From Bacteroidales bacterium KA00251 (GTDB lineage Bacteria > Bacteroidota > Bacteroidia > Bacteroidales > Porphyromonadaceae): 41,624 nt of DNA. Both the position numbers and the translations under genes were made by a program. The first letter of the stretch is position 1. Every line of letters begins with the position of its first letter. Below, one piece after another: positions 3,240-40,867 of this stretch. Under the pieces are notes generated by a model, which saw only the letters and a program-made list of their open reading frames with translations, was not told the DNA's origin and ran no database searches. The DNA lies in contig KQ959253.1 in the NCBI GenBank assembly GCA_001552775.1, forward strand, positions 133,001 through 174,624, read 5' to 3'.

Positions 3240-3280
3240 GCGAAAGTGGAAGACTGTGTATTAAGGGGGGTGTCTAATTG

Positions 3281-3455
3281 GAGACTGTTGCATAAAGGCG
3301 AATCGCTGTGTTGCTTCCGGGATTCGGCTTTGGTCACATACGGAGGTGTGCTCCCTTCTGACCCAACCCTCTGCGCCTTGCGCTTCATCCTTTCTGCAAG
3401 GTCTAGACAATCTTGCGAGCAAGATTGTGAGACTGTTGACTTTTGCAATAGTCTC
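3281..3455 (+). mobile_element. MITE copy A (175 bp)
   Basis: A non-autonomous element with terminal inverted repeats (left GAGACTGTTGCA, right end TGCAATAGTCTC) and a 5-bp target duplication AATTG (3276-3280 and 3456-3460). Inside it carries the perfect palindrome CAATCTTGCGAGCAAGATTG (3408-3427). Its last 27 bp are themselves a hairpin (GAGACTGTTG, 7-nt loop, CAATAGTCTC). No transposase is encoded. Four of six reading frames are open from end to end. It is nearly identical to copy B (two differences), implying recent mobility. The family is unnamed here; the ends resemble those of IS4/IS5-type elements of Porphyromonas, but that link is from memory only. Confidence 0.9.
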
Positions 3456-3472
3456 AATTGAGGATATTTGAC

Positions 3473-3524: not shown

Positions 3525-3598
3525 GGGGCGTTAGCTCATCTGGCTAGAGCGCGACAATGGCATTGTCGAGGCGATCGGTTCGAGTCCGATACGCTCCA
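3525..3598 (+). tRNA. tRNA-Ala (anticodon GGC)
   Basis: A 74-nt cloverleaf. The acceptor strand GGGGCGT pairs with ACGCTCC. The anticodon stem CGACA/TGTCG closes the loop ATGGCAT, giving anticodon GGC at 3559-3561, which reads alanine GCC/GCU codons. The T-arm GGTTCGAGTCC and the D-arm with AGCTCA are standard. The discriminator base is A (3598) and the next bases are CTT, so CCA is not encoded and must be added after transcription. The gene stands alone, is followed at once by a terminator, and is flanked by two same-orientation MITEs. Confidence 0.95.
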
Positions 3599-3601
3599 CT
3601 T

Positions 3602-3646: not shown

Positions 3647-3777
3647 GTTGTCCTAGGTAAGCGAGTGCGCCATTACGAAGATTCTTTTTTCAGATTCTTT
3701 TTTTTGTGGAGACGAAAGTCAAAACACGAGGAGAGTTTGTAGTAAGGGGTTTTCCAGTCGTAGTACGAGCTTCTTTT

Positions 3778-3952
3778 GAGACTGTTGCATAAAGGCGAAT
3801 CGCTGTGTTGCTTCCGGGATTCGGCTTTGGTCACATACGGAGGTGTGCTCCCTTCTGACCCAACCCTCTGCGCCTTGCGCTTCATCCTTTCTGCAAGGTC
3901 TAGACAATCTTGCGAGCAAGATTGTGAGACTGTTGACTTTTGCAACAGTCTT
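3778..3952 (+). mobile_element. MITE copy B (175 bp)
   Basis: Same orientation and length as copy A, with only two differences, both in the right end (CAACAGTCTT instead of CAATAGTCTC). The 5-bp target duplication is CTTTT (3773-3777 and 3953-3957); it could be read as 7 bp (TTCTTTT) because the last two element bases match. The rest of the 3647-4051 gap shows no gene. A near-match to a -7 element (TAACTTCG, 3992-3999) lies 52 bp before the next gene. Confidence 0.9.
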
Positions 3953-4051
3953 CTTTTAGGCGAGAAGAGTGGGACTTTCTCAAAGAATCGCTAACTTCGC
4001 TAAGAAACAGATACGAAAAAATACCTCTAAAATAGTAGTAAAACGAAGACT

Positions 4052-39533: not shown

Positions 39534-40778
39534 CTATTTATAGGGGTGTAATCGTAAGGTGACCCTAATTGGGAGGTGGTCGCTTGTCCCTCCTATATAG
39601 TTATCTCCCCCAAAGGTACGCAAAGGCGTACTTATTCCACTATTTTGCTTCTTCATTCTTCCACGAAGAGAGCAGTTAGAAAAACTGCCAGTTACATAAG
39701 AAATATACGATTTTTCTGCATGATTGAAGAAGTGTGGAGAGAGGAGGATGCGATCGATCTGTGTGTACACTTTGTGAAAGTAGTAGCTTCCTGCTACGCT
39801 CTCTGGTGCTTTATCAAGGCTTACATCGTACATTTTACCCAATTCGAGACTATTGCATAAAGGCGAATCGCTGTGTTGCTTTCGGGATTCGGCTTTGGTC
39901 ACATACGGAGGTATGCTCCCTTCAGACCCAACCCTCTGCGCCTTGCGCTTCATCCTTTCTGCAAGGTCTAGACAATCTTGCGAGCAAGATTGTGAGACTG
40001 TTGACTTTTGCAACAGTCTCAATTCTGTAGTTCCTTTCCTGTCGTAGAGTGCGATCCATTGCTCATCGATGGTCTCTTGGGGTGTACTGTTGAAGTCTCC
40101 TAGGACGAGGATTGGCATTGATGGATCTGCCGAGGAGATGCTGTCGCACTTGGAGTGAAGGAGGTGAAAGGCTTCCTTCCGATAGGGAGCAGATTTTTTT
40201 CTGCCCGAAAAGTTGGAGGGGAGGTGTAGTACAAATATAGTGAGGGGGTACCTTCCAAGAAGAGATCCTGAGACAGCGAGAATAGGGCGAGACGAGTGTG
40301 GAGGAAGACCCTCAGGAGTAGGGATGCACCATTCTCTTACATCATAAGGCTTAAATAGCCCTTCTGCATAAAGAAGAGCTACTCTAATGCCCCGTGCATC
40401 GGCTCCTTGCGAAACAAGTGGATGATAGCATGCAGAGGTGATCCCTTTTTGTGTGACAAGGTCTTGTAGAGTACCTGCATTTTCAACTTCTTGTAGTGCC
40501 ACAAGCCAGGGCCATGACATTCCACCTGTTTGGCTAATTGCTTCTGCAATCTGTCTAAGCTTTCGATAGTAGCGTCGAGTCTCCCACTTTTTTTTGCTTT
40601 GGGGAAGGTACTCTTTGTCGTTGTGGTGTGCATCGGGAATAGTGTCAAATAGATTTTCCACATTAAAGCTCATAACCGAAAAAAACTCTTCTTCCGGAGC
40701 TTGAGAAAAGAGCTCTCCCAAGCAACCAAGCAGAGCAACGGCAATAAAAGGAAACCGAAGAAAAAGATGATGCTGCAT
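39534..40778 (-). CDS. Secreted endonuclease/exonuclease/phosphatase-family protein carrying an in-frame MITE
   Basis: 414 residues from the ATG at 40778, which directly precedes the signal peptide (FPFIAVALLGCLGELFSQA); the frame extends 15 codons to a TTG. The EEP fold motifs are all present: FSVMSFNVENLFDT, LVALQEVENA, VLGDFNSTP, YTQIDRILLS and GGTSDHLPIR. Members cut phosphodiester bonds in nucleic acids or act on lipids or sugars; the substrate is unknown. Between GDFNSTP and YTQIDR, 60 codons are MITE copy C plus its target duplication. Removing them restores TTELGKMYDV, a normal loop. All catalytic motifs survive, so the gene may still be active. A -7 element lies at 40868-40875. Confidence 0.85.
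   Translation of the reverse strand: MQHHLFLRFPFIAVALLGCLGELFSQAPEEEFFSVMSFNVENLFDTIPDAHHNDKEYLPQSKKKWETRRYYRKLRQIAEAISQTGGMSWPWLVALQEVENAGTLQDLVTQKGITSACYHPLVSQGADARGIRVALLYAEGLFKPYDVREWCIPTPEGLPPHSSRPILAVSGSLLGRYPLTIFVLHLPSNFSGRKKSAPYRKEAFHLLHSKCDSISSADPSMPILVLGDFNSTPQETIDEQWIALYDRKGTTELRLLQKSTVSQSCSQDCLDLAERMKRKAQRVGSEGSIPPYVTKAESRKQHSDSPLCNSLELGKMYDVSLDKAPESVAGSYYFHKVYTQIDRILLSPHFFNHAEKSYISYVTGSFSNCSLRGRMKKQNSGISTPLRTFGGDNYIGGTSDHLPIRVTLRLHPYK
39846..40020 (+). mobile_element. MITE copy C (175 bp), inserted inside a gene
   Basis: Same length and orientation as copies A and B, with about five substitutions relative to A. The target duplication is AATTC (39841-39845 and 40021-40025). 175 + 5 = 180 bp, exactly 60 codons, and the host frame reads through it on the minus strand (peptide includes KSTVSQSCSQDCLDLAERM). 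Confidence 0.92.
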
Positions 40779-40867
40779 GGCTATGCAAAACTTGCTTTGA
40801 AAAAGGGTAAAGAGTAGACACAAACGGGATGAAGGAGGTCTTAGACTTCGCCTTGATCGCTATACGA

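Follow-up and report, generated by a model that had tools for sequence, protein, structure and literature searches.

In-frame insertions of a 175-bp, probably IS5-type miniature element in Porphyromonas genes, and tests for selection on its open frames

Fusions of small mobile repeats with bacterial genes in the reading frame are already known from the Rickettsia palindromic elements (RPEs), the ERIC/RU elements and the QMITEs. Nearly half of the RPEs lie in open reading frames (ORFs) (PMC10969869). The ERIC/RU-1, RU-2 and RU-3 elements of enterobacteria generate TA duplications, and their fusions in large-family proteins are C-terminal, none being within conserved domains (Delihas 2007, PMC2759123). 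In Porphyromonas gingivalis, the IS5 family comprises MITE464 (MITEPgRS), a miniature inverted-repeat transposable element (MITE) with a length-based name and 41-nt tandem repeats, and the duplications of the ISPg insertion sequences (IS) range from 2 to 9 bp (PMC4596501). We analysed here a 175-bp MITE present in three copies in a stretch of 41,624 nucleotides of Bacteroidales bacterium KA00251 (assembly GCA_001552775.1, contig KQ959253.1, positions 133,001 to 174,624), hereafter the window, and its relatives in other genomes. It is very probably a frame-neutral MITE tolerated by its hosts, with selection acting on the host gene after insertion and not on the openness of the element. New here are the family itself, the three signal-peptide regions that it interrupts and a test aimed directly at selection on the element; no description of this 175-bp element was found among the titles and abstracts of open-licence papers.

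The left 12-bp terminal inverted repeat (TIR) of the element, GAGACTGTTGCA, is identical to the left ends printed for ISPg4 and MITE464, and its right TIR differs by a single base from the right end of each (PMC4596501, Table 2). MITE464, too, is a short repeat bearing such ends; the present element is distinguished from it by its length of 175 bp, its 5-bp duplication and the one base of the right TIR. As far as its ends tell, it is therefore an IS5-type MITE with an ISPg1/ISPg4-like end. By description only, it resembles the RPEs, which are mobile sequences of about 150 bp inserted in frame in genes with a conserved peptide; six sites (ten copies) here carry an in-frame insertion with the peptide retained, but the high genic share of the RPEs (PMC10969869) is not found, since these represent only 6 of 179 sites. 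Unlike those of ERIC/RU (PMC2759123), the fusions are internal or located in signal-peptide regions, five of the six having been compared with homologues devoid of the insert. QMITE1 and QMITE2 of Coxiella are also MITEs that overlap genes with in-frame additions, but their cases in functional genes are at 3' ends (PMC5896051).

An earlier note on this DNA, drawn from the letters alone, had reported three 175-bp copies bordered by the duplications AATTG, CTTTT and AATTC. The coordinates were verified and the duplications are all perfect, so that each insertion brings a gain of 175 + 5 = 180 bp. Its assignment to the MITEs also held: the element is short and multi-copy, with 12-bp TIRs, target-site duplications and homologous sites that lack the insert, and the two peptides scanned (minus frame 1 and plus frame 1) have no Pfam match at E 0.1. 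It folds strongly (z -4.3 and -3.5), a scan for promoters and terminators was unremarkable, and the flanks of copies 1 and 2 were scored as non-coding by the coding classifier.

Table 1. Coordinates of the element copies, their parts and the genic sites. Positions without a prefix are those of the window.
Feature	Position or genome	Strand	Remarks
MITE copy 1	3281..3455	+	175 bp; flanks non-coding; four frames open
Target duplication AATTG of copy 1	left 3276..3280, right 3456-3460	no strand	
Second palindrome of copy 1, ACAATCTTGC..GCAAGATTGT	3407..3428		element 127-148
Terminal 27-bp palindrome of copy 1	3429..3455		element 149-175; GAGACTGTTG at 149-158 repeats element 1-10
tRNA-Ala gene	3525-3599		between copies 1 and 2
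MITE copy 2	3778..3952	+	175 bp; flanks non-coding; four frames open
Target duplication CTTTT of copy 2	3773-3777 and 3953-3957		
Endonuclease/exonuclease/phosphatase gene	39534..40823	-	Exo_endo_phos_3; copy 3 as in-frame 60-codon insert
MITE copy 3	39846..40020	+	175 bp; within minus-strand gene, read in minus frame 1; three frames open
Target duplication AATTC of copy 3	39841..39845, second copy 40021-40025		
Genic site 1, window nuclease (copy 3)	window		loop
Genic site 2, TatD-like hydrolase	G025 and G021		internal
Genic site 3, chorismate-binding (MenF-like) enzyme	G023, matching P. uenonis DSM 23387		internal
Genic site 4, LptE	G001		signal peptide
Genic site 5, DUF4835 protein	G001 and G025		signal peptide
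Genic site 6, lipoprotein (BACON/non-specific-nuclease protein)	G025, G024 (P. uenonis 60-3), G021		signal region
Solo palindromes	L010:167-193, L070:469-495, L100:3438-3464, L172:802-828		
Solo palindromes	L199:4626-4652, L212:1883-1909, L218:1651-1677, L233:2275-2301		

The element forms an in-frame insert of 60 codons at six genic sites (10 copies), all of them exactly 175 bp long and read in an open frame, which bears out the suggestion that host proteins carry it in this way. The window gene encodes an ORF of 429 residues (Pfam Exo_endo_phos_3, E 1e-54), for which the ATG at 40778 seems, by eye, the better start candidate. In a visual comparison with homologues from other Porphyromonas genomes (28 loci entered in the alignment, 11 full-length rows across the stretch), the insertion falls in a short variable loop between a DFN motif and the GSYYFRG..IDRI strand; no solved structural relative of this protein was found at E 0.001. 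An addition of 60 residues with respect to the closest homologues without insert, chosen by sequence only, was observed for the TatD-like, MenF-like (our label for a chorismate_bind match), LptE and DUF4835 proteins and for the BACON/nuclease lipoprotein, the latter displaying small length differences elsewhere as well; signal peptides were judged by eye. At all six sites the reading phase is set at element base 2, one codon being formed by the final two duplication bases together with the element's initial G. For the TatD-like gene, the ratio of nonsynonymous to synonymous substitution rates (dN/dS, based on two pairs of this one gene) is 0.28 in the host part of two insert-bearing genes (18 synonymous and 17 nonsynonymous changes) and 0.24 in a pair of homologues without insert; the element part, with 2 and 2 changes, has too few to be judged. 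Such values are consistent with continued constraint on the gene, provided that the shared insertion goes back to one old event.

Genic copies were identified by a two-flank coding classifier, which replaced an earlier codon-usage model that had overlooked the window's own genic copy. It needs about 50 codons on each side (30 at a looser setting) and misses N-terminal insertions with fewer than 50. By this classifier, 4 of 189 scorable copies (three sites) are in frame within genes, compared with 61% of 2,962 random nearby positions in the same loci, taken at least 400 bp from the element and counting internal sites only. Three N-terminal sites were added through read-through ORFs. Altogether, 22 ORF rows cross the element, 10 accepted as genic and 12 not (L092, L055, L113, L136, L142, L153, L085, L081 twice, L190, L193 and L003), because one side lacked coding support or the gene apparently starts after the element; the homologue comparison was applied to the accepted rows. 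Three copies were flagged as frame-shifted: L126/L138 lie where a gene has its 3' end, and L081 is a nested pairing located upstream of one. L155 shows a weak in-frame signal, restricted to the 90-base setting. With about 50 codons required per side, or 30 at the looser setting, no closed element was found to be flanked on both sides by coding sequence of one gene.

Apart from these fusions, a gene stop codon lies within one codon of the element junction at six sites (L063, L071/L118, L097, L049/L212, L126/L138 and L194). At L113:2501-2675 the insertion has hit a start codon: on the left an ATG is rebuilt from the duplication ACTAT and the G of the element, the native ATG remains on the right, and the receptor-like gene can be read in frame from either.

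The family was delineated by a search of the window's own genome, with 56 matches, many of them partial, and of the genus, where the best 32 or fewer candidates were scored per genome and additional copies were fetched from three genomes; at least 13 of 26 genus genomes have some match. The resulting non-exhaustive set, from fetched stretches, comprises 198 entries at 179 distinct sites and includes a few overlapping pairings (L080, L081, L197). A perfect 5-bp duplication borders 126 of the 198 entries, with a Y(N5)R target preference (C/T before the duplication in 118 and A/G after it in 112 of the 126). Removal of 17 gapped entries left 181 for length counts, and window-genome copies with internal stretches of exactly 100 N, interpreted as assembly linkers, were left out of the length evidence. 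The length is 175 bp in 149 of the 181, 174 bp in 10, 176 bp in 7 and 172 bp in 3, with a few others. An insertion is thus frame-neutral in 156 entries and frame-shifting in the remaining 25; the earlier statement that an insertion never shifts the frame is true of the three window copies and not of the family, and a rule of a length always multiple of 3 was rejected. Among the 32 entries that depart from 175 bp, 7 are frame-neutral, which is about chance level.

An exact 27-base probe matched 70 stretches of named genomes, a collection from which records close to the window genome are possibly missing; they come from two Porphyromonas uenonis strains, an uncultured Porphyromonas and a single scaffold of Hallella bergensis. 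The latter bears a complete 175-bp copy (L352:635-809) with 93.7% identity to window copy 1, and this occurrence outside Porphyromonas reflects either transfer or contamination. The element was unmatched in the plasmid search, and no exact 27-base match was found in viral contigs.

The openness announced for the window, four of six frames, applies to copies 1 and 2. In copy 3 two stops close minus frame 0, which leaves three open frames, and the consensus of the 149 copies likewise has three, plus 1, plus 2 and minus 1. Among the 145 tested copies, 9 have minus 0 open, every one of them from the window genome, and 7 have all four frames open. Four open frames, as in these window copies, are rare in dinucleotide shuffles (6 of 20,000), in real 175-bp segments of the window (0.02% of 40,396 overlapping segments, three open in 2.7%) and in GC-matched segments (none of 3,455, three open in 7.2%). 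The excess over chance put forward in the earlier note is found for four frames, and it depends on what is shuffled: at least four frames are open in about 1.2% of 20,000 shuffles with 27 bp fixed at each end, and in 4.9% of 5,000 when both hairpins are fixed (27 bp left, 54 bp right). These figures bear on a further explanation, which we consider about as probable as its opposite, that the palindromes give rise to the open frames as a side effect, their structured ends being stop-free in these frames on both strands. Fixing ends and hairpins raises the chance from 0/5,000 to 0.049 for the window copy, and the strong folds agree with it; for the window subfamily it is a partial account, the probability remaining at 0.049. 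This explanation complements selection on the host gene after insertion and is not a competitor of it.

Whether openness is maintained on the element was evaluated with 145 copies of 175 bp, four genic copies being excluded and six recognised later as genic still included. Private substitutions, each counted once, make a stop in the three open frames in 15 of 97 cases for 10.5 expected, and in the closed frames in 5 for 9.9 expected. All 201 distinct substitutions give 24 stops in open frames (21.0 expected), and counting every occurrence gives 85 (93.2 expected, a fraction of 0.18 of the simulations being at or below this value). With 15 private stops against 10.5, there is no stop avoidance at the level of the element. 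It thus seems very unlikely that the element was itself selected as protein-compatible, its 60 codons and open frames helping genic insertions to survive. The conserved length, the ten genic copies of exactly 175 bp in open frame and a slight over-retention of open frames in an uncorrected simulation would agree with such selection; recent common descent alone would however give equal length, the length variants are mostly frame-shifting, and for 173 of the 179 sites no in-frame position within a gene was found, leaving little gain in copy number. Selection for open frames on the element was consequently rejected, and the view of an element built for tolerance is not supported. That all six genic sites are in an open frame, as the frame tabulation proposed in the earlier note indeed gives, is expected from host selection after insertion, because a closed frame breaks the gene.

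The choice of frame at these sites is also uneven. The orientation is minus at five of the six, with a common peptide RLLQKST or close variants in minus frame 1, the most hydrophilic of the open frames (mean hydropathy -0.72 in the consensus version, against -0.04 and +0.39 for the two others). At least five of six sites in one frame has a chance of 0.018 if the three open frames are equally likely, a pattern noticed post hoc, and it counts in favour of a protein-compatible element. In a more far-reaching form, minus frame 1, with its hydrophilic peptide of 58 residues, would be a general-purpose protein insert, repeatedly accepted in signal peptides and loops (LptE, DUF4835) and kept across species, the element being a recurrent source of protein segments whose sequence is retained partly for that; we regard this as improbable.

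Selection on the host gene after insertion, our preferred explanation, would operate as follows. An IS5-family transposase, which we infer, would mobilise a non-autonomous IS5-type MITE in trans, with a 5-bp staggered target. By happenstance 175 + 5 bp make 60 codons, and three of the six frames are usually stop-free. Most insertions into genes would be lost, the damaging ones presumably being removed by host selection, and the rare survivors would be open-frame read-throughs where extra residues are tolerated, in a loop, at a domain edge or in a signal peptide; the chimeric proteins would then be translated and stable. The frame arithmetic permits survival, apparently without having been a trait under selection in the element.

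Several points weigh against this explanation. The three-frame count of the consensus is moderately unusual under whole shuffles (P 0.0064); it becomes ordinary once the hairpins are held fixed (P 0.13), as the palindromes would predict. A simulation that ignores shared ancestry gives 381 open frames retained for 357 expected (P 0.003); much of this count comes from a few recurrent substitutions, and the excess disappears with a single count per distinct substitution. That closed-frame insertions are purged is something we infer: the closed plus-0 frame is entered by genes at two sites (L054, whose protein has no Pfam match, and L070/L102) with a stop four residues in, and the right flank in matching phase stops within 2-4 codons, so both look like insertions at gene ends. 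Finally, an IS with the exact TIR did not turn up at the transposase loci inspected (30 each of PF01609 and NF033578, a subset of the matches), the searches covering four genomes for PF01609 and 26 for NF033578.

Among autonomous elements, the closest one encountered is a 1323-bp IS of G011, reached via a transposase match below the cut-off, with the end GAGACCATTGCA and the duplication TATAT; its TIR is not an exact match to the MITE. The transposase loci bear as well on the possibility that the open frames are remains of an ancestral coding sequence, for example a transposase gene, after internal deletion. This is unlikely, as a full-length IS with the same interior was not seen in the loci examined and the minus-1 and plus-1 peptides lack a Pfam match. 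As a separate observation, a 1886-bp element of G025 (L181-L186) encoding a 562-aa transposase has an end, GGGGCTGTGTCAAAAGTC, that equals the MITE right end at 14 of 18 positions by eye.

The N-terminal sites could also be read differently, the gene starting inside or downstream of the element, which would be untranslated and in frame only incidentally. An ATG in minus frame 1 at element offset 67 and, for the lipoprotein, a possible start immediately following the element in two of its three genomes are compatible with this, which we consider possible but doubtful: the signal peptides of LptE and DUF4835 are split by the insert with, by eye, no complete one downstream, and the internal cases (window gene, TatD-like, MenF-like) are left unexplained by it.

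Remnants and rearranged forms of the element were also encountered. Eight solo 27-bp palindromes, equal or nearly so to the right end of the element, each have their own perfect 5-bp duplication (Table 1), and the site of the L212 solo is empty in L049. They may result from internal deletion via the 10-bp direct repeat (element 1-10/149-158) or be minimal mobile units. One site occurs in four states, the full element in L071 and L118, a 20-bp remnant with the duplication in L092:890-909 and an empty site in L150. A 36-bp unit with two facing GAGACCTTTGCA ends in G004 (L335:2074-2109) resembles the 27-bp solos. The terminal 27-bp or the inner palindrome is inverted in G000 (C29:160022-160048, C27:1854-1880 and C26:66133-66163) and in L059, as if hairpin arms had been flipped.

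These insertions represent a natural set on the tolerance of proteins to 60-residue insertions, with one insert in six unrelated hosts, five of them having insert-free homologues, and with three signal-peptide regions interrupted in frame. They also illustrate that the impression of an element designed for the reading frame can come from common descent together with host filtering.
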